DNA from: Campylobacterota bacterium
Lineage (GTDB): Bacteria; Campylobacterota; Campylobacteria; Campylobacterales; Hydrogenimonadaceae
Reading direction: 5' to 3'
Assembly: GCA_013153475.1 (NCBI GenBank)
Contig: JAADEJ010000092.1
Span: 1-38,957 of the forward strand
Length of the DNA stretch: 38,957 bases
Below, piece after piece: positions 15,590 through 38,867 of this stretch. The position numbers and the translations under genes were made by a program. The notes beneath the pieces are model-generated. The model ran no database searches. It saw only the letters and a list, made by a program, of their open reading frames with translations, and was not told the DNA's origin. Within the stretch, counting starts at the first letter, position 1. Each line of letters opens with the position of its first letter.

Positions 15590-18106
15590 TTACGCCCTTA
15601 ACCACTCGGCGATGAGCCGGGTATAGGTGTCGTAAATACGCGCGCCCGCGCTCTCGTCGGCCGCCTGGAAGTAGAGGTTGAGATACTCGCCGTAGGCGTC
15701 GGGAATCATCAAAACCCAGTCGGTGGCGTTTTCCCATATCTTCACGCCGTCGACGGTGGCGCTGCGTTTGCCCTTGGCAGCCTCCAGAAAGCGGCGCATC
15801 ATCATCCCTTTTTTGGATTGGGGACAGGCGATCTTCTCGGTACGGTAGTAGAAAGGCTGTACCCGTTTGCCAATTTCCCCAAGCGTCAGGCAGTGGCGCA
15901 TGAGCAGTTGCAAAATCCGCAGCGTGGCGTAGGAGGCGTCACGATGGAGGGAAAACTCGGTAAAGGCGAAGTTGCCGTCCGTGGTGGCGATGAGATCATA
16001 GGCCCGGAGTCGGTCGGCTTTGAAGTTGTTGTAAACCCCCCACTCGATCTCAAGGTTTTCATATTCGACAATATCAGGCGCCCAGGTTGGCAAAAAGACC
16101 CGCATGGTCTCCTTTTTGACACCCGCTTCAAGGTTCATCAGGTACAACACCGTGGAGAGAGTTTTGATTTTATCGAAAAACTCCCCCTCGTCACTCACCA
16201 GCCCTACCCTCTGGCCGCCCGGGAAAATGACAAATCCCGCATCCAGCTCCAGCGAAGTCACGATGGCCGAAAGATCCCTGCGGGTACGTTCCAGCATCAC
16301 GTCCACGCCGCTGTGGCTGCCGGGATGGGGATGGGCGTTGAGGGTGATGGCGTCGATGCCCAGATCATCCAGAATCTGGGGAAAAATGTCGGCGGTGATA
16401 CCGTGCATGAGATCAACGGCGATGCGAACGGGGCGGGAACGGAGGGTTTTGCGATCCAGCCGGCTGACCACCGCCTCCCGGTAGTGGCGGCCCTCCTGCA
16501 ACTCCGGTTTTTCGATGATCTGCCCGATCTTCGTGAAATCGACCCGGCGGAACTTTTCGCCGAAAAAGCTCTTCTCCACGGCTTTGGCGGTCGCCGTGTC
16601 GATACGCAGGGCCTCTTCGTTGAAGAAGTGAATATCGGTGGCGGCGGGGTCTTCGCCGTTGCGACGCACAAAGGCGCCTCCCATGACGCCGGATGTGTGG
16701 GAAATGGCGTGGCGCAGGGCGGCGGGCGGGATGTTTTTCAGATCGATCACGTCAATGCCGGCGGAGAGTAGTCCGCCCAGGAACGCCCGTTTGATCATGC
16801 GGGAACTCTTGTCGTGATCGCGTCCCACCATGACGGTGGAACCCTGGGGAAGCTGGGCGGCAAAGGCTTCGGCCAGTTTGGTGGCCATTTCGCAGCTGAG
16901 CTCCACGTTGGAGGTGCCGGTGACAATGCCGTACTGGAAGATGGAGTTTTTGTAGCGGCTTCCCCACACCACGTTGCGGTTGACCACGGCGGCGGGCTCG
17001 ATCTCCTTGTCGGGCCAGACGGTCACATCCTGCTCGAAACGGGCCAGTTTGCCCACGCTGCACCCCTCGGCCAGAATGACGCCGGCCTTGGCCTCCACCC
17101 CGTCGCCGATCCGGTTGTTGTCGCAGATGACGGCGTTGTCCATCACCGCCCGCCTGCCGATTCGCACATCGTGCCAGATGACGCTGTTACGCAGGCGGCA
17201 TTCGTCACCGATGCGGGTGCGATCCCCTATGACGCAGTTGTTCAGGCGCACGTTTTTACCAAGCCGTACATCCGCGCCGATTACCACGTTGCCGATAATC
17301 TCCACATCTTCGCCAATCTCGCTTTCACCGGTCAGCCAGAGAGTACCGTCGGGGTACGCTACGCGGCGGCCCGGTATGGCGAAATTGAGCCGTTCGCCCA
17401 GAATGTCGGCATGCACCTCCCGATAGCTGTCGGGATTGCCCACGTCGCGCCAGTACCCTTTGGCGGTATAGCCCATCAGGTCGATCCCCTCGCGCATCAG
17501 CAGGGGAAAGAGATCTTTGGCGAAATCGAAATTCTCCTTGTGGGGAATATACTCCAATATTTCGGGTTCGATAACGTAGATGCCGGTGTTGATGGTGTCA
17601 CTGAAGACCTCGCCCCAACTCGGCTTTTCGAGAAACTTCTCTATTTTGCCCTCTTCATCGGCGATCACCACGCCAAACTGCAGCGGGTTCTCCACGGAGG
17701 TGAGGGTAATGGTGAGCCTGGACCCTTTTTGGCGGTGGTAATCGAAGATTTTGGCAAAATCAAAGTCGGTAACCAGATCGCCGCTGACAATCACGAAGGT
17801 GGTATCCAGGTACTCCCTGGCCAGGCCGACCGCGCCGGCGGTGCCGTAGTCGTCGTCGGGCAGGACGTAACGGATGGTGATGCCCCGGTCGCTTCCGTCG
17901 CCGAAACGCTTTTTGATCACGTCGGGTTTGTAGTAGAGCAGGATGATCACTTCGTCAATACCCAGCGCGACAAGCCGGTTGAGGGTATGTTCCATCATCG
18001 GCAGGTTCACGACGGGCAGCATCGGTTTGGGAACCGAATGGGTCAGGGGTTGGATGCGGGTGCCGAATCCTCCGGCGAGTATGACCGCCTTGATCTTACC
18101 GGCCAT
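15590..18106 (-). CDS. Sugar nucleotidyltransferase fused to left-handed beta-helix and degenerate phosphohexomutase domain
   Basis: 838-aa three-part protein. Residues 1-235 are a nucleotidyltransferase that makes an NDP-sugar from a sugar-1-P (LAGGFGTRIQPLT at 10-22, KPMLP, SGD at 108-110, EKP at 160-162). Residues about 255-375 are hexapeptide beta-helix repeats (VVIGADVRLG and similar). Residues about 385-838 align with phosphomannomutase/phosphoglucomutase, but the catalytic loops are changed: the TASHNP phosphoserine loop reads FVRRNGEDP (479-487), the DGDGDR metal loop reads FPGGQR (628-633), and the sugar loop and C-terminal phosphate loop are unrecognisable. Such fusions are usually annotated mannose-1-P guanylyltransferase/phosphomannomutase. 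The frame extends to 18205, but the ATG at 18106 has AAAGGAAACCAG upstream. Its substrate (mannose-1-P or glucose-1-P) is not decidable from sequence. Confidence 0.85.
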   Translation of the reverse strand: MAGKIKAVILAGGFGTRIQPLTHSVPKPMLPVVNLPMMEHTLNRLVALGIDEVIILLYYKPDVIKKRFGDGSDRGITIRYVLPDDDYGTAGAVGLAREYLDTTFVIVSGDLVTDFDFAKIFDYHRQKGSRLTITLTSVENPLQFGVVIADEEGKIEKFLEKPSWGEVFSDTINTGIYVIEPEILEYIPHKENFDFAKDLFPLLMREGIDLMGYTAKGYWRDVGNPDSYREVHADILGERLNFAIPGRRVAYPDGTLWLTGESEIGEDVEIIGNVVIGADVRLGKNVRLNNCVIGDRTRIGDECRLRNSVIWHDVRIGRRAVMDNAVICDNNRIGDGVEAKAGVILAEGCSVGKLARFEQDVTVWPDKEIEPAAVVNRNVVWGSRYKNSIFQYGIVTGTSNVELSCEMATKLAEAFAAQLPQGSTVMVGRDHDKSSRMIKRAFLGGLLSAGIDVIDLKNIPPAALRHAISHTSGVMGGAFVRRNGEDPAATDIHFFNEEALRIDTATAKAVEKSFFGEKFRRVDFTKIGQIIEKPELQEGRHYREAVVSRLDRKTLRSRPVRIAVDLMHGITADIFPQILDDLGIDAITLNAHPHPGSHSGVDVMLERTRRDLSAIVTSLELDAGFVIFPGGQRVGLVSDEGEFFDKIKTLSTVLYLMNLEAGVKKETMRVFLPTWAPDIVEYENLEIEWGVYNNFKADRLRAYDLIATTDGNFAFTEFSLHRDASYATLRILQLLMRHCLTLGEIGKRVQPFYYRTEKIACPQSKKGMMMRRFLEAAKGKRSATVDGVKIWENATDWVLMIPDAYGEYLNLYFQAADESAGARIYDTYTRLIAEWLRA

Positions 18107-18201
18107 CTGGTTTCCTTTCTGCCAACGGCGCCCTTCGGGGCGACCGAAAGCGTGGAAATTGATTTGGATCCATTTTACAGGCGCGTAACTGAAACTCCAC
18201 T
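18107..18201 (-). promoter_or_regulatory. 95-nt spacer with 5-bp hairpin, widest internal gap of the early operon
   Basis: This is the longest gap in the glycogen gene string. It holds the ribosome binding site of the fused nucleotidyltransferase (AAAGGA), a small hairpin CGCCC-TTCG-GGGCG on the plus strand (18129-18142), and, on the minus strand, a TAAAAT box that could be a -10 element without a convincing -35. There is no T-run after the hairpin, so it does not look like a terminator. An internal promoter or processing site is possible but weakly supported. Confidence 0.25.
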
Positions 18202-19161
18202 TCAATCCAGGCGGTTGAGCATGGCCAGATGGTGGGGGTTGAGACGGTTTTTGTGGCTGACGACGCTTTCGATGTCCAACAGCCCGATGGCACCGTTTTT
18301 CCAGACCGTCACCCGGTTGGCCTTCTCGCCGCTCAAGAGGCGGTCGACGGCGGTAACGGCGAACTCGAATCCCATCATTCTGTCAAAGGTAGTGGGGGCG
18401 CCGCCGCGCTGAATATGGCCCAGAACCGTCACCCGTGTCTCAAATCCCAAAGAGTTTTCGATCCAGCGGGCGATCTCTTCGGTTCGGCCGGTTCCTTCGG
18501 CCACGATGGCCAGAATATAGCGACGTCCCGCGGCGATCTCTTCTTTCAGGCGCTCTTCGGCCACGGCCCGGTTGAAATCCACTTCGGGGATGACGCAGAT
18601 CTCCGCCCCGGAGCTGATAGCCGAAATGGCCGCCAGATAGCCGCACTCTCGCCCCATCACCTCCACCACGAAGGCGCGGTTGAAGGTACTGGCGGTGTCG
18701 TAGATTTTGTCCAGCGCGTCACGGATGGTGTTGAGCGCCGTATCGACTCCCAGGCAGTAGTCGGTACCGTAGATATCGTTGTCGATGGTGGTGGGAATGC
18801 CGACAAAACGCACATCGAACTCCCCGCAGAAGCGCTCCATGGCCCGAAAGGAGCCGTCACCGCCCAGCACCACTAGCCCCTCGATCCCCTCTTTCCTGAG
18901 ATTTTCGTACGCCTGTTTGCGGTAGTCGTACTCGTAGAAACGTTGGGAGCGGGAGGAGCGAATGACCGAGCCGCCTCGGTGCAAAATGCCCGCCACGTCG
19001 GCGTGGGAGGCCCGTTTGATGCGGCCGTCGATCAACCCCTCAAGGCCGTCGAAGATCAGGTAGGGGGTCTCTCCCCGCTCCTCGGTATAGTCCACAAACT
19101 TTTTGACCGCCGCGTTCATGCCCGGGGCGTCGCCGCCGGAGCACATGATGGCCAGGTTCAT
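18202..19161 (-). CDS. pfkA: ATP-dependent 6-phosphofructokinase
   Basis: 319-aa phosphofructokinase, phosphorylating fructose-6-P to fructose-1,6-bisP and so committing glycogen-derived hexose to glycolysis. Motifs: MCSGGDAPGMN (6-16), the nucleotide loop GGDGS (100-104, Gly after Asp as in ATP-using rather than PPi-using enzymes), the catalytic Asp127 in TTIDND, MGRECG (169-174) and GHIQRGGAPTTFDR. Length matches bacterial PfkA (about 320). The ATG lies one nucleotide after the glgP stop, with AAGGGG upstream, indicating co-transcription. A classical Pfk implies glycolytic use of the stored glycogen rather than gluconeogenesis only. Confidence 0.96.
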   Translation of the reverse strand: MNLAIMCSGGDAPGMNAAVKKFVDYTEERGETPYLIFDGLEGLIDGRIKRASHADVAGILHRGGSVIRSSRSQRFYEYDYRKQAYENLRKEGIEGLVVLGGDGSFRAMERFCGEFDVRFVGIPTTIDNDIYGTDYCLGVDTALNTIRDALDKIYDTASTFNRAFVVEVMGRECGYLAAISAISSGAEICVIPEVDFNRAVAEERLKEEIAAGRRYILAIVAEGTGRTEEIARWIENSLGFETRVTVLGHIQRGGAPTTFDRMMGFEFAVTAVDRLLSGEKANRVTVWKNGAIGLLDIESVVSHKNRLNPHHLAMLNRLD

Positions 19162-28742: not shown

Positions 28743-29534
28743 TTGTATGAGTTTTTAAAAGCGATTGTACAGAATCGCAAACTGATTTTCTCTTTGACAA
28801 AAAACGACTTCAAACAGCGTTATGTCGGCAATATGCTCGGCATCGCCTGGGCGTTTATCCAGCCGACGGCGACTGTTTTGATCTTCTGGTTCGTTTTTCA
28901 GGTGGGCTTCAAGTCCAAGCCTGTCGGCGACTTTCCCTTTATTCTCTGGCTCGTTGCCGGTATGTTCCCCTGGTTTTACTTCTCCGAGGGTCTGGCCAGC
29001 GGCACCAACAGTATCATCGCCAATAGCTTTCTGGTCAAAAAGGTGCGATTTCAGGTCAACCTTTTGCCTGTCATCCCCCTGCTTTCGGCGTTGGCCGTGC
29101 ATCTTTTTTTCATCTTTTTCATGTATGGCATGTACCTCTATTACGGTATCAGCCCGTCATGGTATTGGTTACAGGTCTTTTACTACCTTTTTGCGTTGAC
29201 GCTCCTTTTGCTCGGTCTTTCGTGGATCACCGCTTCCATCGTGGTCTTTTTTAGAGACATGGGGCAGATTGTCGGGATGTTTTTACAGTTTGGCTTTTGG
29301 CTAACCCCAATCTTTTGGTCCATTGATATTCTGCCTGCCAAATACCACAAAATCATCGCCCTCAATCCTTTGGTCTATATCATAGAAGGGTACCGTGACA
29401 GCATGATTCACCATGTCGGATTTTGGGAAAAGCCCGGCATGACGCTCTATTACTGGAGCGTCACCCTGGCCATTTTCGCCCTGGGCGCCTTGACGTTCAG
29501 GCGACTTCGACCCCACTTCGCGGATGTGCTTTGA
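28743..29534 (+). CDS. wzm: ABC-2 type polysaccharide exporter, membrane subunit (Wzm-like)
   Basis: 263-aa inner membrane permease that, with Wzt, exports undecaprenyl-linked O-polysaccharide to the periplasm. An amphipathic N-terminus (LIFSLTKNDFKQRYVGNMLGIAW, typical of this family) is followed by six predicted helices and the conserved FFRDMGQIVGMFLQFGFWLTPIFW segment. The start is TTG at 28743: no in-frame ATG lies nearby, the ATG at 28747 is out of frame, and GGAAAG is correctly spaced. The stop overlaps the Wzt start (TGATG), consistent with equal subunit production. A TATACT at 28715-28720 could be a -10, without a good -35. Confidence 0.92.
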   Translation: MYEFLKAIVQNRKLIFSLTKNDFKQRYVGNMLGIAWAFIQPTATVLIFWFVFQVGFKSKPVGDFPFILWLVAGMFPWFYFSEGLASGTNSIIANSFLVKKVRFQVNLLPVIPLLSALAVHLFFIFFMYGMYLYYGISPSWYWLQVFYYLFALTLLLLGLSWITASIVVFFRDMGQIVGMFLQFGFWLTPIFWSIDILPAKYHKIIALNPLVYIIEGYRDSMIHHVGFWEKPGMTLYYWSVTLAIFALGALTFRRLRPHFADVL

Positions 29535-30817
29535 TGAATAAAACCCTTGCCGTTCGGGTCAAAAACCTGACAAAAATCTATCATCTATATGACAACCCTC
29601 AGGATCGCCTGAAAGAGGCTTTGCACCCTTTCAAAAAGAGCTACCACCACGATTTTTATGCCCTCAAAGATGTCTCTTTTGACATTTACCGGGGGGAGAC
29701 GGTGGGTATTGTGGGCAAAAACGGCGCCGGTAAGTCAACATTGCTTAAGATGATTACCGGCGTGCTGACCCCCTCTTCGGGGCAGATCGAGACCCGTGGA
29801 ACCATCGCCTCTTTGCTGGAACTTGGAGCCGGCTTCAACCCGGAGATGACGGGGTTGGAGAATATCTATCTCAACGGCACGCTGATGGGGTTGGAAAAAG
29901 AGGAGATCGAGCGAAAGCTTGACGCGATTCTCGCTTTTGCCGATATCGGCGAGTTTATCCACCAGCCGGTCAAGATGTACAGCTCCGGGATGTTCGCGCG
30001 GCTGGCCTTTTCTGTTTCCATCAACGTCGAACCCGATATATTGATTGTCGATGAGGCGCTGAGTGTGGGGGATATGGCGTTTCAGATGAAATGCTTCAAA
30101 AAATTCCAGGAGTTTCAGGAGCAAAATCGCACCATTCTTTTTGTCACCCACGCGCTCGATACGGTTATTCGCTACTGCAATCGCGGTATGGTAATCGACG
30201 AAGGCAAACTGCTATGCGACGCGGACGCCAAAACGGCGGTGGATACCTTTAAAAAAGTTTTGACGGGCACGCTTCACAGCGCTGTTTCTACCGATTCTGT
30301 CGAAGAGAAAAAAACGGAGTCACTCAAAGAGCGACGTCTGCGAGACTATTTTGACGACCACGGTGAACTGGACAGTTACGGCAATATGCGGGCCGAGATT
30401 ATCGATTTCGGTCTGCTGGACGAAGAGAATCAGCCCGTCAAAGCGCTCGATTATGACGCCCCTTTTACGATTGTGATGCGCGTCAGGTTCCACGCGGATG
30501 TGGAAGAGCCCATCTTCGCCTTTACCGTCAAAGATACCAAAGGGCTGGAGATTACCGGCACCAATACCATGATGAAACATCACCATACCGGACATTACAA
30601 AGCCGGCGATGAAATTACCGTCACGTTTACGCAGTCGGCCAACCTTCAGATAGGGCAATACGCCCTCTCACTGGGATGTGTCGGTATCAACGAAAGCGGC
30701 ATTGTCGTCTATCACCGGCTCTATGACGCCATTCTCTTTGAGGTGATCGGTTCGGCCAATATGGTCGGGTTTTTCGATTTACACAGTGAGATAACCCTAC
30801 AGACAGATGCCAACTAA
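29534..30817 (+). CDS. wzt: ABC polysaccharide exporter, ATPase with carbohydrate-binding C-terminal domain (Wzt-like)
   Basis: 427-aa ATPase energising O-polysaccharide export. Walker A GKNGAGKS (61-68), signature SSGM (150-153) in MYSSGMFARLAFS, Walker B ILIVDE (169-174), switch His in VTHALD. After a linker, residues about 270-427 form the immunoglobulin-like Wzt C-terminal domain (IVMRVRFHADVEEPIFAFTVKD, GLEITGTN, IGQYALSLGC). In E. coli O8/O9a this domain recognises the capped non-reducing end of the chain and licenses export. Its presence predicts a terminal modification, fitting the methyltransferase and kinase-like domain downstream. The frame opens at 29423, but ATG 29534 is chosen from the overlap with wzm and the family N-terminus. 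Confidence 0.94.
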   Translation: MNKTLAVRVKNLTKIYHLYDNPQDRLKEALHPFKKSYHHDFYALKDVSFDIYRGETVGIVGKNGAGKSTLLKMITGVLTPSSGQIETRGTIASLLELGAGFNPEMTGLENIYLNGTLMGLEKEEIERKLDAILAFADIGEFIHQPVKMYSSGMFARLAFSVSINVEPDILIVDEALSVGDMAFQMKCFKKFQEFQEQNRTILFVTHALDTVIRYCNRGMVIDEGKLLCDADAKTAVDTFKKVLTGTLHSAVSTDSVEEKKTESLKERRLRDYFDDHGELDSYGNMRAEIIDFGLLDEENQPVKALDYDAPFTIVMRVRFHADVEEPIFAFTVKDTKGLEITGTNTMMKHHHTGHYKAGDEITVTFTQSANLQIGQYALSLGCVGINESGIVVYHRLYDAILFEVIGSANMVGFFDLHSEITLQTDAN

Positions 30818-32393
30818 CGTATCGACTTTTCTGAATGACAGGAAAGTTTTCTGGACTTTACTTTTTTTTACGCTTTTAACGCTCTTTTTTTCCCATCCGT
30901 TCATGAAATACCCATTCGATATGTACAAGTTGCAACTGCGACTGGACCATTTTTTACTCCATCCGGACGACCTTCCGCACTATGGCAAGCATTACTGGAT
31001 CTATGCGTGGGCCCACCTTTTTCGATGGCTTGGTATCGGTACGGAAGAGATATTCGAACGGGTCTATATCATTCACAGAACACAGATCATTTTTACGTTT
31101 TTTTCACTTTTTTATCTCTCGTATACATTGGCCGAAAAACTTTTTCGTCAGGCTCTGACAAAGACCCATGCCCTCTACCTCGCCTATGTTGCCACCCTTT
31201 TATGGTTTCTCTTCTTTGCGACGGCATCCGTGGGCGAACACCATGTCTGGATTCAGTGGTACTCCATCAACTATCAGATCGCATTGCCGATGGTTCTTTT
31301 GGCTCTGGCGTTGACCATCCGTATTCTTTTTGATCCCCTCGATACGAAAAAACGGCTCCTCTACCTCTGTTTGACGCTCTTCCTTCTACTCATCGTCGGT
31401 GTCATTCACACCATGGAGTTGATCTACTATTTTCTCTATCTTTTCACGCTTTTGTTACTCTTTTACCGCCCTGTTTTTGCCATATTACGCCGCCGTCCCC
31501 TGCTTTCACTCACCGTCTTTGTTCTTTTTGGCGTGTCGGTTTATTATCTGGTTTTTTTTGTCGTTCCAACCTTTACCCATCGTAAAATTCTTTTGATTCA
31601 CTATCTTGCCAATCACGACTTTGCAGGATTGAAAGCGAAGATACTGCGTGACGGTCATATGTTGTTGTCAAAATTCAACCGTTCCTGGACCAGTGTACAT
31701 CTTCTTTATCCTGCCTCTTTGCTATTATGGACGTTGATGCTCCTTTCCCGGCCCTTTGCCCATCGGCTGAACCTGCCGTCGTTTGACCGGCGTTTCTGGT
31801 TTTTTCTGGTGGTGACATCTTTATTCGCCTATATTCCGCTCAACCTCTACACCGCCGGTGTGGCCTCATCGGTAACCTATCTAATCGTCACTTATCGCTT
31901 TTACTTCTCTTCCTTGATCTTTCTGGCCCTGCCCTTTACGACCTACTATTTTCTCTATCCCTTTTTCAAACGCAGGCCGGGCTACTGGATCGTGGCGGTT
32001 TTCGTTTTGGAAGTGGCCATCTGTGTTACGCTTTCCAAAGTGACCGACCGTTATCACCATAACTTCGCGAAAAACGTTGCCGCCTTTTTCCAACTTTTCG
32101 ATGAACGGGCCAGCGGTTATCAACTCTCCGCAAAACAAAGGGCGCAAATCGGCCGGATTCTCTTGCGTTACGGTTCAAAAAAAGCGCTTGCCGATACAAA
32201 AATATTCGCCCGGGAAGATATCGCCTTTGTCATACGACACGTCTACGGCTATCGTAACGTCTACCTGCCCGGTCACTGGAACGGCAGGCACATTAACGTA
32301 AACGGCTATCTCGAGGCATACCGTAAGTATAAAGGCAAAAAGGTTCTGATACCGGTTCCTCCCGGTTTTCCAGAATATACCCCTTACCATTGA
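30807..32393 (+). CDS. Polytopic membrane protein, possible GT-C-type glycosyltransferase
   Basis: 528-aa protein with about ten hydrophobic helices and no match that I recognise to a named family. After the first helix comes a large polar loop with acidic and aromatic residues (PFDMYKLQLRLDHFLL, HPDDLPHYGKHYW), the position where GT-C glycosyltransferases carry their catalytic acid. A soluble C-terminal tail of about 95 residues ends the protein. It overlaps the wzt end by 11 nt, so it belongs to the exporter operon. It is AT-richer than the glycogen genes. O-antigen modification or polymer assembly in the membrane is a guess from context; a flippase- or ligase-like role cannot be excluded. 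Confidence 0.6.
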   Translation: MPTNVSTFLNDRKVFWTLLFFTLLTLFFSHPFMKYPFDMYKLQLRLDHFLLHPDDLPHYGKHYWIYAWAHLFRWLGIGTEEIFERVYIIHRTQIIFTFFSLFYLSYTLAEKLFRQALTKTHALYLAYVATLLWFLFFATASVGEHHVWIQWYSINYQIALPMVLLALALTIRILFDPLDTKKRLLYLCLTLFLLLIVGVIHTMELIYYFLYLFTLLLLFYRPVFAILRRRPLLSLTVFVLFGVSVYYLVFFVVPTFTHRKILLIHYLANHDFAGLKAKILRDGHMLLSKFNRSWTSVHLLYPASLLLWTLMLLSRPFAHRLNLPSFDRRFWFFLVVTSLFAYIPLNLYTAGVASSVTYLIVTYRFYFSSLIFLALPFTTYYFLYPFFKRRPGYWIVAVFVLEVAICVTLSKVTDRYHHNFAKNVAAFFQLFDERASGYQLSAKQRAQIGRILLRYGSKKALADTKIFAREDIAFVIRHVYGYRNVYLPGHWNGRHINVNGYLEAYRKYKGKKVLIPVPPGFPEYTPYH

Positions 32394-32466: not shown

Positions 32467-33357
32467 ATGCCGGCAAAGATGAATTTGGATTATCACGACG
32501 ACAAAGACCACTACAGTGACGGCGAGATTGAAGAAGAGCTTCTAAACATCGTCAAAACCCGTAACGATTACGATGAGATACTTCAAAAAGATAACCGATG
32601 GCCTATTCTCTACCACCTCTCCCCTATCCGCCGGAATATCCTCAACTGGTACCCTTTCGATCCGAACGGAAACTGCCTTGAAATCGGGGCGGGTTGCGGT
32701 GCCATAACGGGTATGCTGTGCGAAAAGCTCGCCAAAGTGACGGCCGTTGAGCTTTCCAAACGGCGCGCCACCATCAACTTTGAGCGCAACAAAGCGCATG
32801 ACAACCTTGAAATAATCGTAGCCAATCTCAACAACATCGTTTTTGATGAAAAATATGACTATATTACGCTTATAGGGGTGCTGGAGTATGCCGGTTCGTT
32901 TACCAAAACCCAAAACCCCTATCTCGATTTTCTCAAAAAGATCCGCACATTGCTCAAACCCGAAGGACGGCTTTTTATCGCTATAGAGAACCGTTACGGT
33001 CTCAAGTACTTCTCCGGTGCCAAAGAGGACCATACGGGAAGATATTTTGACGGAATTGAGGGGTATGAGGGAATCGACTGGGTCAGAACTTTCGGCAAAG
33101 AGGAGCTTACCGACCTTTTGGAGGAGGCCGGGTTTTGCGACAACATCTTCTACTACCCCCATCCCGACTACAAGATGCCCATAGAGATCTATTCGGATAA
33201 TATGCTGCCCGATGGGCAGACTTTTTTGCAGAGCGCGCCAAACTTCGATTTCGAGAGGTTTTTGCTTTTTGACGAGTCAAAAGCTTTCAAAGGGATTGCC
33301 GCCAACAAACGGTTCGACTTTTTCGCCAACTCTTTTTTGATTGATTGTGGAGTCTAA
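32467..33357 (+). CDS. SAM-dependent class I methyltransferase, candidate O-antigen chain-terminating enzyme
   Basis: 296-aa class I methyltransferase. SAM-binding motif I is CLEIGAGCGAITG (70-82), the acidic end of strand 2 is TAVELSKRRA, and the motif near strand 4 is YDYITLIGVLEYAG; an N-terminal helical extension and a C-terminal tail flank the Rossmann fold. The gene abuts, with no spacer, the gene for a kinase-like/GT2 fusion and sits in an ABC-dependent O-antigen locus with a Wzt of carbohydrate-binding type. In WbdD of E. coli O8/O9a a methyltransferase and a kinase are fused and cap the chain end; here the same activities would be on neighbouring genes. AAGAGAG is the ribosome binding site. 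Confidence 0.82.
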   Translation: MPAKMNLDYHDDKDHYSDGEIEEELLNIVKTRNDYDEILQKDNRWPILYHLSPIRRNILNWYPFDPNGNCLEIGAGCGAITGMLCEKLAKVTAVELSKRRATINFERNKAHDNLEIIVANLNNIVFDEKYDYITLIGVLEYAGSFTKTQNPYLDFLKKIRTLLKPEGRLFIAIENRYGLKYFSGAKEDHTGRYFDGIEGYEGIDWVRTFGKEELTDLLEEAGFCDNIFYYPHPDYKMPIEIYSDNMLPDGQTFLQSAPNFDFERFLLFDESKAFKGIAANKRFDFFANSFLIDCGV

Positions 33358-36081
33358 ATGAAAATCTTTTACGTTAAAAACAACAGCGAAAGAAATCCGG
33401 CGTTTCAGCTTAAAACCGTTATCTATTCGGATAAAGAGGGAAAATTTGTCAAAAAAGAGCCTTTATGTCAGGAGGCAGGAGAGCACTTCAATGGCATTGC
33501 CCGTGCGCATGACGCTTTGAAAAAGTTGCTTGCAAACTCCAGCATGGAGCCAGTTCCTATTATCCATTCGTCAGAGCAGGCAATCGTTTTTCCATTTGTG
33601 GAAGGTGAAAGTTTTCAGAGCTTGTTCGATAAAGCCTACCAGACTTCATTGGATCATGCCGTTACGTTTGTCTCTGACTATTTCAATCTTCTTAAAGCAT
33701 CTTTCCCGCTTGAACCTTTTTGCGCCGAGCAGATGGTGGATGAACAATTTAAAAAGCTTTTTGGAGAATACGACTATGCGCGACTCGACGGTTTGGAAGC
33801 GTTCAAAGAGACAACCAACCTCGACCTGATCTTGCCGAACCTGATTCAAACCGAAAACAACCGCATCGTTCTTATCGACTACGAATGGACTTTCCCTCTC
33901 TCTTTGCCGCTTGAATATATCTTCTACCGCACCCTGCTTTTGCTGCCTGCCGAAGTGAGTGAAAAGTTTCTATCAAACATGGACCATCTCGATCTTTTTG
34001 AAAAAATGGAACGCCATTTTATCGATCGATACGTCATGAAAGACGGGTTCTATTTTTACAAATACAACTACATCAAAGCCAATGTGCCCGTCACCGAACT
34101 GCTTGACGCCAAAGAACGGCATATCGATGAGTTGAAAGCGAGCGCAAAAGAGAATCTCCGGGTAGCGAACGAGATGCATAAAGTGGCCGAAAGGCTTGGA
34201 GAAGAGCTTCAGGAGACGGGCGACGATCTGACATACGCCAGGCAAATGGTGGCCTACCGTGACTGGCAGCTTGAAAACGCCCGTTTAAGTAACCGGATCA
34301 AACGGCTTGTTGCCAAACTCATTCCTTTCTACCGCGCTCCGGTGTCTGAAATGCAAGAACCCGTCCATCCCGCCAAAAAGAGGAAAAAAGGGTATCGCTA
34401 CCGCACCCCCGAATTGACACCGCAGAAAAAAGAGCTACTTGAGTCACTGCTGAAAAGCAAAGATGCCCCCACCATCTCCATTCTGATGCCGGTCTATAAC
34501 GTCGATCCCAAATGGCTGCACAACGCCATAGAGTCGGTTAAAAAGCAGTGGTACACCAAATGGGAGCTTTGCATCGTCGATGACAAAAGCACCAACGAAG
34601 CCACCCTTGAATACCTCCGTTCGCTTGACGATCCGCGTATCAAAATAAAATTTTCGGATGTCAATAAAAATATCGCCGGCGCTTCCAACGACGCCGCGCG
34701 GATGGCCACGGGAGCGTACATCACGCTGTTGGATAATGATGACGAACTCACCCCCGACGCCCTCTTTGAAGCGGTCAAAACCCTGTATGAAACCGATGCC
34801 GATTTCGTCTACAGTGACGAGGATTTCATTGATACCGAAGGCCACTGTTCCAACCCCCACTTCAAACCCGACTTCTCCCCCGACCTGCTTTTAAGCCACA
34901 ACTATATCACCCACCTGGCCTGCTTTAAAAAGAGTCTTTTTGACGAAGTCGGCGGTTTTGACGAACGTTTCAGCGGCTCACAGGATTATGATCTTTTTTT
35001 GCGCATGAGCGAAAAAACAGACAACATTCACCATATTCCCAAGGTCCTCTATCACTGGCGCACCATCGAAGGCTCTACCAGCGCCGACAGCAAAGCCAAG
35101 CCCGAAGCGCTTAAAATCAGCAAACAGGTGCTCGAAGAGACGCTCAAGCGTCGCGGCATCGACGGATGGGTGGAATACGGCAATATCGACCACTATTTTC
35201 GGGTGCGCTACACTATTCAAAACAACCCCAAAGTTAGCATTGTCATCCCTTTTAAAGACAAACCTGAGCTTTTGAGGATGTGCGTCACCTCCGTGCTGGA
35301 GAAATCGACCTATGAAAACTACGAGATCATCGGCATCAGCAACAACAGCGAAGAGGAGACGACTTTCAAGACCATGAAAGAGCTGGCGGCGCTTGACGGA
35401 CGTGTCACATTCTATGAATACAACGTCCCTTTCAACTACGCCCAGATCAACAATTACGCCGTCAACACCTATGCCAAAGGTGAGCATATTCTGCTTTTGA
35501 ATAACGATATTGAAGTGATTACCTCCGACTGGATCGAGGCGATGCTGGAGCACTCCCAGCGACCCGAAATCGGTTGCGTGGGGGCCAAACTCTATTATCC
35601 CGACGATACCGTGCAACACGCCGGCATCATCATAGGGTTGGGTGGCTACGCGGGTCACTCCCATAAACACCTGCCAAGAGAGAGCCTCGGCTACTTCAAC
35701 CGTCTCAACGCCGTTCAGAACGTCACGGCCGTCACCGCCGCCTGTTTGATGGTCAAAACCGCCCTCTACAAAGAGGTCAACGGCATGGATGAGGTCAAAT
35801 TCAAAGTCGCCTACAACGACGTGGACTTTTGTCTGCGTATCCACAAAAAGGGGTATCGCAACCTCTTTACCCCCTACGCGGAGCTCTATCACCACGAGTC
35901 GGTCTCCAGGGGGTATGAGACCACACCGGAAAAGATGGCCCGTTTCCAGAAAGAAAAAGATGCCCTCTATGAGCGCCACGGCGATCTGTTGCAACAAGGG
36001 GATCCTTTTTACAACCCCAACCTTACCCACGACAAAGAGGATTTCACGCCATGCCTGAGACGTATCGAACAAAACCGCTAA
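33358..36081 (+). CDS. Kinase-like domain, helical segment and two GT2 glycosyltransferase domains in one protein
   Basis: 907-aa multidomain protein. Residues 1-235 look like a small-molecule kinase of the protein-kinase/APH fold: candidate ATP Lys32/33 (FVKKEPL), helix-C Glu39/42, hinge FPFVEGES (78-85), NLDLILPNL with catalytic Asp156 and metal Asn161, and LIDYEW with Asp174. Residues about 246-315 are charged heptad-like helix (KERHIDELKASAKENLRVAN), probably coiled coil. GT2 domain A starts at 372 (ISILMPVYN) with LLDNDD (457-462) and QDYD (542-545); GT2 domain B starts at 626 (VSIVIPFKD) with LLNNDIEV (713-720) and NDVDFCLR (820-827). It likely builds and caps an O-polysaccharide. The ATG directly follows the methyltransferase stop; the end overlaps the next gene by 31 nt. 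Confidence 0.82.
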   Translation: MKIFYVKNNSERNPAFQLKTVIYSDKEGKFVKKEPLCQEAGEHFNGIARAHDALKKLLANSSMEPVPIIHSSEQAIVFPFVEGESFQSLFDKAYQTSLDHAVTFVSDYFNLLKASFPLEPFCAEQMVDEQFKKLFGEYDYARLDGLEAFKETTNLDLILPNLIQTENNRIVLIDYEWTFPLSLPLEYIFYRTLLLLPAEVSEKFLSNMDHLDLFEKMERHFIDRYVMKDGFYFYKYNYIKANVPVTELLDAKERHIDELKASAKENLRVANEMHKVAERLGEELQETGDDLTYARQMVAYRDWQLENARLSNRIKRLVAKLIPFYRAPVSEMQEPVHPAKKRKKGYRYRTPELTPQKKELLESLLKSKDAPTISILMPVYNVDPKWLHNAIESVKKQWYTKWELCIVDDKSTNEATLEYLRSLDDPRIKIKFSDVNKNIAGASNDAARMATGAYITLLDNDDELTPDALFEAVKTLYETDADFVYSDEDFIDTEGHCSNPHFKPDFSPDLLLSHNYITHLACFKKSLFDEVGGFDERFSGSQDYDLFLRMSEKTDNIHHIPKVLYHWRTIEGSTSADSKAKPEALKISKQVLEETLKRRGIDGWVEYGNIDHYFRVRYTIQNNPKVSIVIPFKDKPELLRMCVTSVLEKSTYENYEIIGISNNSEEETTFKTMKELAALDGRVTFYEYNVPFNYAQINNYAVNTYAKGEHILLLNNDIEVITSDWIEAMLEHSQRPEIGCVGAKLYYPDDTVQHAGIIIGLGGYAGHSHKHLPRESLGYFNRLNAVQNVTAVTAACLMVKTALYKEVNGMDEVKFKVAYNDVDFCLRIHKKGYRNLFTPYAELYHHESVSRGYETTPEKMARFQKEKDALYERHGDLLQQGDPFYNPNLTHDKEDFTPCLRRIEQNR

Positions 36082-37895
36082 TTTCGTTTCTTCTCTTTGT
36101 CGCGCTTTTTTGTGCCATCTATGTTGGACTGGTGGCTTTGGGAAACGGTACCTTTTTCGAAGCACATATGCGGGTGGCTGACGGCAGGGAGCTGAATCCC
36201 AGGATCTATTACCGCACGGCCGACCGGCCTTTTTCACAAGAAATGTCATCCGCCGCCATTCTGGAGGCTGGGTGGTACAGCATGCCGGTACGCGCCAAAC
36301 ATCCCGTTGTGCAGTACCGTTTTGATCCCGATATCAAGAAGGGTAGAAAAATTACTCTCTCGGCCGTGCGCATTCGCCGTGTATCATGGTGGAAAGAGTA
36401 TGTCTGGACCGTTTCTCCCGACACTTATGAAAAGGTCGATCAAATTGAACCGTCCACTTTTTCAAACCGTTATCCCGTCACTTTCACTACTACCGGGTAT
36501 GACGCCAAAATCTATCTTCATCCGCCCCAAAGCAAGCCGCTTGTCAAACATAGGATTGATGTCGAAAAGGTTTTTTGGGCACTCTTCTTCACCCTGGCGA
36601 CACTCTTTTTCCTGCAAATCTACCGACAGCGATCATCGGAAGAGTCCTTTTGGGCCAAAACTATCCTCTACACCCTTTTTCTCGGGTTTATCCTTTTTCA
36701 GGCGCGCTACGACCTGACCCATGTACGCTACAGTTATCCGCCCGATGAGGGGGCCCATTATCGCTACGCCATGGAGATGCACTACGCGCCGGCTTTGGTA
36801 CCCGATTTTACGAAGATGCACCACTACCTTACCCATCCGCCGCTCTATTACATCATTATCGCACAGGCTTTCGATCCAAACCGCTCGCAGCTCGAGAATG
36901 TGCGGGCCATGCGGCAGGTCACCTTCGCCATTTTCGCTCTGAGCGTCTTACTGCTTCTGATGATGGGGTATGAGGCGAAGTGGGGTATTGTTGGGCACTT
37001 TGTCTTTCTCTCGTTTTTGGCCTCGATTCCCATGTTTACCTACCTGGGCGGAAGTCTTAGCAACGACAACCTGGCCCTGCTTGCCGGCACACTCTTTCTC
37101 GTGGGGCTTAAACGTCTTTTGCCCGATGCCAAAACGTGTGACGCCTCGGCCTGCGTGCTCATCGTGTTGGGGGGACTCCTCGGTTTTTTCGCCAAATTGA
37201 CGGTGGCCATTCTTATCTTTTTCGCCCTGCTCTATTTTGTTCTTTATCGACTTTTGAAACGCGCGCCTCTTCATCTGGCCAGATGGCAGTGGTTCTTGCT
37301 CGCCGTTGCCGCCGTTCCTGTTCTTTATTACCAGCTTGACATTTCATTGACCTACCACAGTCTCATTCCCACCTACGACAAGACCCATCCCAAAGCCTTC
37401 CTCCATTCACCCTTCTATGTCCCACCCGAAATGCGCCTGCACCTTTCACTCAAAGCGTGGTTCGGGCGTATGCTGCACTACATTCAGGGCGGATGGTTCG
37501 GCATTCACTCCCACCACTCTTTCGGACACGCCACCTGGTGGGGCGTATGGGGTTCCATTTTCCTGCACGCACTGGCGGTTTTGGGGCTCTTTCTGCCCTG
37601 CCCCAAGGAGGAAAAGGACCGTAGCCTCTGCCTGCTGGGCAAGGTGGGTCTGCTCGCCTTTTTCAGCGTGGAGACGGTGCAGTTTTTCTTCTCTTACAAA
37701 GCGCATCTCAAAAACGGCTACCTGGGCGGCCTGCAACCCCGCTATTTATTACCTTTTATGGTATCGTTTGCTATATTGTCGGCATTTGTCGTAGAGAAGC
37801 TCAAACGCTTTTTTATCTGGAACGTCGTTGTGTTGGCGGCGACGTTTCACGCCCTTTACGGCAGTTTTTTCTATTTTCTTCTCTTTTACCGATAA
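36051..37895 (+). CDS. GT-C membrane glycosyltransferase (DUF2142-like)
   Basis: 614-aa inner membrane protein. One helix (about 10-32) is followed by a beta-rich periplasmic domain (38-165), then about ten helices. At 230-239 the loop after the third helix carries PPDEGAHYRY, an Asp-Glu motif with nearby His, where GT-C enzymes bind the polyprenyl-phosphate sugar; the later GGSLSNDNLALLAGTL is also typical of DUF2142 proteins. The predicted role is transfer of a sugar from a lipid carrier to polysaccharide on the periplasmic side. The immediately following GT2 resembles enzymes that make such lipid-linked donors. The start lies 31 nt inside the preceding gene; donor and acceptor are unknown. 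Confidence 0.75.
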   Translation: MPETYRTKPLISFLLFVALFCAIYVGLVALGNGTFFEAHMRVADGRELNPRIYYRTADRPFSQEMSSAAILEAGWYSMPVRAKHPVVQYRFDPDIKKGRKITLSAVRIRRVSWWKEYVWTVSPDTYEKVDQIEPSTFSNRYPVTFTTTGYDAKIYLHPPQSKPLVKHRIDVEKVFWALFFTLATLFFLQIYRQRSSEESFWAKTILYTLFLGFILFQARYDLTHVRYSYPPDEGAHYRYAMEMHYAPALVPDFTKMHHYLTHPPLYYIIIAQAFDPNRSQLENVRAMRQVTFAIFALSVLLLLMMGYEAKWGIVGHFVFLSFLASIPMFTYLGGSLSNDNLALLAGTLFLVGLKRLLPDAKTCDASACVLIVLGGLLGFFAKLTVAILIFFALLYFVLYRLLKRAPLHLARWQWFLLAVAAVPVLYYQLDISLTYHSLIPTYDKTHPKAFLHSPFYVPPEMRLHLSLKAWFGRMLHYIQGGWFGIHSHHSFGHATWWGVWGSIFLHALAVLGLFLPCPKEEKDRSLCLLGKVGLLAFFSVETVQFFFSYKAHLKNGYLGGLQPRYLLPFMVSFAILSAFVVEKLKRFFIWNVVVLAATFHALYGSFFYFLLFYR

Positions 37896-37907: not shown

Positions 37908-38867
37908 ATGAAACTGATTATCCAGATTCCCTGCTATAACGAGGCCGAAACCCTTCCCATTACCCTGGCCGATCTGCCCAGAGAGGTGGAGGGCTTTGAC
38001 AAGGTCGAGTGGCTGGTCATCAACGACGGCAGTACCGATAACACTGTTGAAGTGGCCAGAGAACACGGGGTGGATCATATCGTCGATCTCAAGTTCAACC
38101 AGGGACTGGCCAAAGGCTTCATGGCGGGTATCAAAGAGTGTCTGCGCCAGGGTGCCGATGTGATCGTCAACACCGACGCCGATAACCAGTATCAGGCCGC
38201 CGACATCCCCAAGTTGGTCAAACCGATTCTGGAGGGCAAAGCCGAATATGTCATCGGCGCGCGCCCCATTGATGAGACGGAGCACTTCTCCAAAGCCAAA
38301 AAGCTTCTACAGAAACTGGGTTCCTGGGTGGTACGCAAAGCCAGCCGCACCGACATTCCCGATGCCCCCAGCGGCTTTCGGGCCATCAGCAGAGACTGCG
38401 CCATGCGCCTGAATGTCTACAACAACTACACCTACACGCTGGAGACTATTATCCAGGCGGGTCAGAAAAACATGGCCATCACCTCCGTGCCCATCCGCAC
38501 CAACGGTTACCTGCGCCCCTCGCGCCTCTTCTCCTCCATCCCCAATTATATTAAAAAGTCGGTGGTGACCATTGTGCGGATCTTCGTGGTCTACAAGTCG
38601 TTTCAGTTCTTCATGACCATCGCCGCCATACTCTTCGGTTCCGGCTTTTTGCTCGGTCTGCGATATCTTTACTTCTACTTCACGGGAGACGGGGACGGGC
38701 ATATTCAGTCGGTGATTCTTTCGGGCGTATTGATGGGTATGGGTTTTCAGACCGGGCTCATCGCCTTTGTGGCCGACCTGCTGTCGGTCAACCGCAAGCT
38801 TCTTGAGGAGATCCGCTACGAGGAGATGAAAGAGAAGTACGACAAAGCCGCCGGCAAGAAGCAATAG
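37908..38867 (+). CDS. GT2 glycosyltransferase, polyprenyl-phosphate sugar synthase type (DPM1/GtrB-like)
   Basis: 319-aa GT2 enzyme with catalytic N-terminal domain (IPCYNEAETLP 7-17, INDGSTDN 38-45, and the DXD-type NTDADNQY 88-95) and two C-terminal membrane helices (about 233-258 and 270-296) followed by a charged cytoplasmic tail. This layout is that of dolichol/undecaprenyl-phosphate sugar synthases, which charge a lipid carrier from an NDP-sugar. The likely user of that product is the GT-C enzyme encoded just upstream (12-nt gap). CAGGAG precedes the ATG by 7 nt. Which sugar is transferred cannot be read from the sequence. Confidence 0.88.
   Translation: MKLIIQIPCYNEAETLPITLADLPREVEGFDKVEWLVINDGSTDNTVEVAREHGVDHIVDLKFNQGLAKGFMAGIKECLRQGADVIVNTDADNQYQAADIPKLVKPILEGKAEYVIGARPIDETEHFSKAKKLLQKLGSWVVRKASRTDIPDAPSGFRAISRDCAMRLNVYNNYTYTLETIIQAGQKNMAITSVPIRTNGYLRPSRLFSSIPNYIKKSVVTIVRIFVVYKSFQFFMTIAAILFGSGFLLGLRYLYFYFTGDGDGHIQSVILSGVLMGMGFQTGLIAFVADLLSVNRKLLEEIRYEEMKEKYDKAAGKKQ

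Follow-up and report, generated by a model that had tools for sequence, protein, structure and literature searches.

Two abutting Campylobacterota genes as a probable split form of the Klebsiella O7 ORF6-type polymerase-terminator

Introduction

In Klebsiella pneumoniae O7, a single polypeptide, ORF6, combines a methyltransferase (MT) with a 223-residue kinase that had no annotation, followed by a CBM, a coiled coil and a GT2-GT2 pair (Kelly 2024, PMC11231755). The protein adds a phosphate at position 3 of the terminal rhamnose and then methylates that phosphate, yielding a methylphosphate, and the substitution D441A abolished both phosphorylation and export (PMC11231755). The kinase fold is related to AmiN, the nearest structure named; the MT-kinase was considered distinct from WbdD by the authors, and all N-terminal orthologues that they aligned had the MT within the same protein (PMC11231755). 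Methyl-ether terminators are also described: E. coli O8 WbdD has no kinase domain (PMC3482155), and Geobacillus WsaE, which carries GT modules, caps with 2-O-methyl rhamnose (PMC2943079).

The window analysed here covers positions 1 to 38,957 of contig JAADEJ010000092.1 (assembly GCA_013153475.1) from a Campylobacterota bacterium of the Hydrogenimonadaceae. A first-pass annotation, made from the letters alone, had read two adjoining genes of this window as a divided WbdD. The two genes instead probably encode a split polymerase-terminator of the O7 ORF6 type, capping a chain that Wzt would recognize for export. What is new is the split arrangement; the kind of terminator is already known, from a recent description.

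Results

Organization of the export locus

Features of the locus are listed in Table 1. The MT open reading frame encodes 296 aa (Pfam Methyltransf_23, E 1e-11) and abuts the gene for a 907-aa protein (33358-36081), as noted in the first pass, with the MT stop TAA standing directly before the ATG at 33358. Junctions of this type (abutting stop-ATG or short overlap) are common to most relatives, and the MT gene and the 907-aa gene are probably translationally coupled. The carbohydrate-binding C-terminal domain earlier ascribed to the Wzt of the ABC exporter was recovered as PF14524 (E 8e-39).

Table 1. Features of the locus, in window coordinates.
Feature	Position	Strand	Evidence
wzm, ABC-2 exporter permease	28743..29534	+	Pfam PF01061 E 1.5e-16
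wzt, exporter ATPase with C-terminal carbohydrate-binding domain	29534..30817	+	ABC_tran E 9.5e-25; Wzt_C PF14524 E 7.7e-39
MT, stand-alone class I SAM methyltransferase, O7-ORF6 type	32467..33357	+	Pfam; P. asturiensis match
Junction of MT gene and 907-aa gene	33344..33360	+	GGAG within final MT codons; TAA, then ATG directly
Predicted kinase domain, residues 1-243 of 907-aa protein	33358..34086	+	AF2, Foldseek, invariant columns, hhalign
Residues 245-321 as one long helix; presumed coiled-coil rod (ruler)	34090..34320	+	AF2; heptad score
Basic amphipathic rod end, residues 309-326, starts RLSNRIKRLVAKLIPF; presumed membrane contact	34282..34335	+	Motif conservation
First GT2 domain, residues 371-586	34468..35115	+	Pfam PF00535; profile
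Second GT2 domain, residues 624-863	35227..35946	+	Pfam PF13641; P. asturiensis GT2-GT2 match

GC content is 46-52% over the locus versus 55-64% across most of the left part of the window, a drop which suggests that the locus was acquired. Since rmlC is present, dTDP-rhamnose is a possible precursor of the glycan. Further to the left, an 871-aa fusion of nucleotidyltransferase, left-handed helix and phosphoglucomutase domains (15593-18205, minus strand) sits among a run of sugar-phosphate and GH57 genes.

A predicted kinase domain at the N-terminus of the 907-aa protein

Pfam, NCBIfam and PDB sequence searches found no kinase in residues 1-314 of the 907-aa protein; because these databases name none, the kinase motifs recognized in the first pass went beyond annotation. 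The domain was detectable only through structure and profile-profile comparison. An AF2 model of residues 1-330, made from an alignment of 26 relatives that spans several bacterial phyla and includes an archaeon, had a mean pLDDT of 92.5 (92-98 up to about residue 230) and was kinase-like to ~243, followed by one helix. Foldseek matched the model to aminoglycoside (APH), macrolide (MPH) and RIO kinases in the PDB (best E 4.5e-6, probability 1.00), with TM scores of only about 0.3-0.5, in part due to the long helix included in the query. R12, T20, K33, D156, N161, I173-D174-Y175-E176-W177 and R191 are invariant in the 26 relatives, which is far from chance, and K33, D156, N161 and D174 were assigned as the predicted catalytic residues. 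These results bear out the kinase fold proposed earlier and define a kinase family that is new to Pfam and NCBIfam, with K33, D156, N161 and D174-Y-E-W as a clear signature.

Homology to the fused O7-type protein

O7 ORF6 itself (MN173773.1) was compared by way of its published residue numbers, using the Pseudomonas asturiensis and C. braakii proteins as proxies. The P. asturiensis protein (WP_024686765.1, 1457 aa) is plasmid-encoded, right after wzm-wzt. It has Y28, Y66, G91, G93, E112 and Y158 at all six of the residue numbers published for the SAM site of O7 ORF6, and its D443 stands beside the published D441. Y49, G74, G76, E95 and Y141 of the window MT correspond to published positions after a uniform shift of 17. 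Window and P. asturiensis sequences are 41% identical over 288 aa of the MT (hhalign E 3e-50) and 44% identical over 534 aa of GT2-GT2, and their kinases were aligned by hhalign at 96.6% (E 6e-10, with an O7-type profile of two sequences only), pairing D156 with D443, N161 with N448 and D174 with D461. Because the two window genes are collinear with the single P. asturiensis polypeptide, they can be described as an O7-type polypeptide that lacks the CBM and is divided between MT and kinase. The layout seen in the first pass, with kinase and ruler on the glycosyltransferases and the MT apart, was correct as a description; kinase-rod-GT2-GT2 is the normal O7-type order, and the MT is the sole detached part. 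A DNA search of E. coli genomes found the P. asturiensis or Citrobacter gene in none of them.

Profiles that do detect the O7-type protein did not relate either domain detectably to WbdD. E. coli HS WbdD (708 aa; H132, H133 and R203, the phosphate-binding residues of its MT, were checked along with N356 and D369) gave hhalign probabilities of 0.2-0.7% against the kinase profile and of 15-23% against the MT profile, the latter over 45 columns that cover the generic SAM motif only. Read by eye, the position of WbdD H132-H133 is occupied by E140-Y141 in the window MT, leaving the two histidines without an apparent counterpart there, and no WbdD chain was among the 50 Foldseek matches listed for the window kinase model. 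A true split of WbdD, which the like activities and layout (by analogy), the coiled-coil rod and the adjoining Wzt domain would favor, is thus extremely improbable, and the earlier claim of a divided WbdD is not supported with respect to either descent or membership. Neither of the findings that would have spoken against the first-pass reading more broadly, lack of a kinase fold or clustering of the MT with unrelated sugar-specific enzymes, was obtained.

Split and fused arrangements among relatives

One scan of 84,980 genomes yielded 25 loci, mostly from Sulfurovum and other Campylobacterota, with the others from two records labelled Deltaproteobacteria, from Clostridia and Lachnospiraceae, from a Methanobrevibacter and from a Daviesbacteria. 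The MT is separate from the kinase gene in 18 of the 25, as in the window, and stands directly upstream of it in 17; in the eighteenth (L020) the contig stops within the MT tail. MT and kinase are fused in one frame in six loci (five Lachnospiraceae and the Methanobrevibacter), and in the remaining one (L023) the MT lies elsewhere in the genome, on a different contig. Overall, MT and kinase stand side by side or in one frame in 24 of the 25 loci, and among 298 Campylobacterota genomes the full-length MT and the kinase were found in the same three. Wzm and Wzt are usually encoded just upstream (Wzt with the C-terminal domain in 16/25), and the kinase is joined to rod and GT2 in 12/25, while in several others the protein ends after the rod.

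Assembly error was considered as the source of the split and rejected, because the same separation is seen across many assemblies, one of which is the complete Sulfurospirillum cavolei UCH003 genome. The MT tree needs two changes between split and fused; it is poorly supported, has long branches and sets no direction for the splitting. An AF2 model of the natural Methanobrevibacter MT-kinase fusion had a pLDDT of 88.3 and a pTM of 0.84, and its best 50 fold matches were all methyltransferases.

Several individual loci depart from the common layout. In S. cavolei UCH003 (L024:6001-9921) the MT is split off, and behind the kinase come a stretch similar to the P. asturiensis post-kinase region, a possible CBM counterpart, and a repeated coiled-coil unit. 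L023 and L071 belong to the same genome (G380): L023 has kinase-rod-GT with no MT, and L071 has an MT and then a GT protein with no kinase recognized in it, such that one MAG would retain both MT and kinase in trans, provided that its bin is clean. In L013 and L015 (4118-6001) the MT has an N-terminal extension of ~330 residues, nucleotidyltransferase-like by eye. Unannotated contigs labelled 'Bacteriophage sp.' (MT836085.1, MT839147.1 and MT836982.1) carry an MT of the window type and are probably bacterial fragments; scans of viral contigs found nothing.

In the five Lachnospiraceae fused proteins (L025:5389-7311, L027:5389-7329, L028:2602-4554, L029:4582-6516 and L030:5380-6888), the kinase residues are intact and the SAM-binding half of the MT is called missing, because the match of the MT part to the profile starts only near position 155. 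Judged by these sequences, the proteins are possibly kinase-only terminators. They also bear on whether the kinase-like domain of the window protein is an inactive scaffold, with the MT, as a separate gene, acting alone and capping with a methyl ether like O8 WbdD and WsaE. Methyl-ether terminators with GT modules are known (PMC2943079; O8 WbdD in PMC3482155), yet a scaffold would not need invariant active-site residues, and Lys, Asp, Asn and Asp are invariant across the 26 sequences, which come from several phyla and include an archaeal one; moreover, the homologous O7 kinase is active, with D441 essential (PMC11231755), and the Lachnospiraceae relatives retain the kinase residues despite missing the SAM-binding half of the MT. 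An inactive scaffold is therefore unlikely.

The rod and its basic end

The heptad-like helix placed at 246-315 in the first pass is predicted to be slightly longer in the AF2 model, a single 77-residue helix (245-321) directly after the kinase, with GT2 beginning at 371. Its heptad character held up less well: the score of 0.64 against a shuffle mean of 0.43, equalled by 7 of 300 shuffles, is a modest signal by itself, and the signal is stronger in several relatives than in the window helix. The stretch from kinase to rod-end motif, counted by hand, is about 30-76 residues across relatives. The motif, of the type S-[LM]-R-[IL]-K-N-R-[IL]-K, is found in 16/16 proteins examined, with a net charge of +5 to +8, and forms the extreme C-terminus in proteins that have no GT after it. 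In the window protein the rod end has a muH of 0.69, and 9 of 500 shuffles were as high. A membrane-associated amphipathic helix has been described for WbdD; by analogy, the rod end may keep the GT end close to the membrane and the kinase away from it.

Discussion

Proposed mechanism

The domain content, gene order, predicted fold, conserved catalytic residues and homology to the fused O7-type protein all point to the following scheme for a split O7-type polymerase-terminator. Working on the cytoplasmic side of the membrane, the two GT2 domains of the 907-aa protein would lengthen a lipid-linked glycan. The kinase, placed at the distal end of the rod, would phosphorylate the non-reducing end when the growing chain arrives there, and the rod would thereby set chain length. 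The separate MT, presumably in complex with the kinase in trans, would then methylate the terminal phosphate, its putative acceptor, to give a methylphosphate cap; the finished cap would halt growth and be read by the carbohydrate-binding domain of Wzt, leading to export. Against this reading, the rods are short, and the CBM that lies between kinase and rod in O7 is absent from the window protein.

Alternatively, kinase and MT could modify the glycan internally or decorate it, with no role in termination and with length set by other means. The locus encodes a 528-aa membrane protein with no Pfam match (30807-32393), a DUF2142-like membrane protein (36051-37895) and a polyprenyl-phosphate-sugar-synthase-like GT2 (37908-38867), perhaps a set that adds sugars after export, and because of these membrane proteins of no clear family and this GT2 the glycan may be decorated. 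A kinase on a polymerase-joined rod, near a Wzt with a carbohydrate-binding domain, is nonetheless the conserved arrangement of a terminator (PMC11231755), and the characterized relative modifies the non-reducing end only, so that internal modification or decoration without termination is very unlikely.

Within the split O7-type reading, it is conceivable, and we suggest it tentatively, that detachment of the MT uncouples phosphorylation from methylation so that the steps are dosed separately, with the Lachnospiraceae proteins as kinase-only terminators exporting phosphate-capped chains. Phosphorylation would then stop growth and methylation might license export, two steps independently adjustable by the cell, and the Lachnospiraceae proteins would be the mirror image of O8 WbdD.

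The terminator type described for O7 in 2024 is hereby extended to free-living Campylobacterota, and its kinase-MT pair is now also seen in Clostridia, in one bacterium of a candidate phylum and in a methanogen. Kinase and MT can be separate chains, and the separable pair allows glycan phosphorylation and methylation to be assayed one by one.

Comparison with known systems

The AmiN, APH and MPH antibiotic kinases share their fold with the window kinase, differing in substrate, in the absence of a rod or GT, and in sequence (about 10-15% identity). WsaE of Geobacillus stearothermophilus resembles the pair in having an N-terminal MT and two rhamnosyltransferase GT domains beside wzm-wzt; compared by description only, it differs as a trifunctional protein with a 2-O-methyl cap and no kinase (PMC2943079). 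The likeness to E. coli O9a WbdD (PMC3482155) is functional, a kinase and phosphate MT on a coiled-coil rod whose cap is read by Wzt. WbdD, however, has no GT and recruits WbdA, its kinase and MT are not detectably homologous to those of the window, and its kinase motif is HDD..N..DFG as against NLD..N..DYEW in the window protein. By analogy, the window pair most likely works like WbdD without being a WbdD member. O7 ORF6 differs in having the MT in the same polypeptide, whereas the window MT is a separate gene, and in an immunoglobulin-like CBM between kinase and rod, where the window helix begins right after the kinase; it shares with the window pair the order of MT, APH-like kinase, coiled coil and GT2-GT2, and an ABC exporter in the locus.
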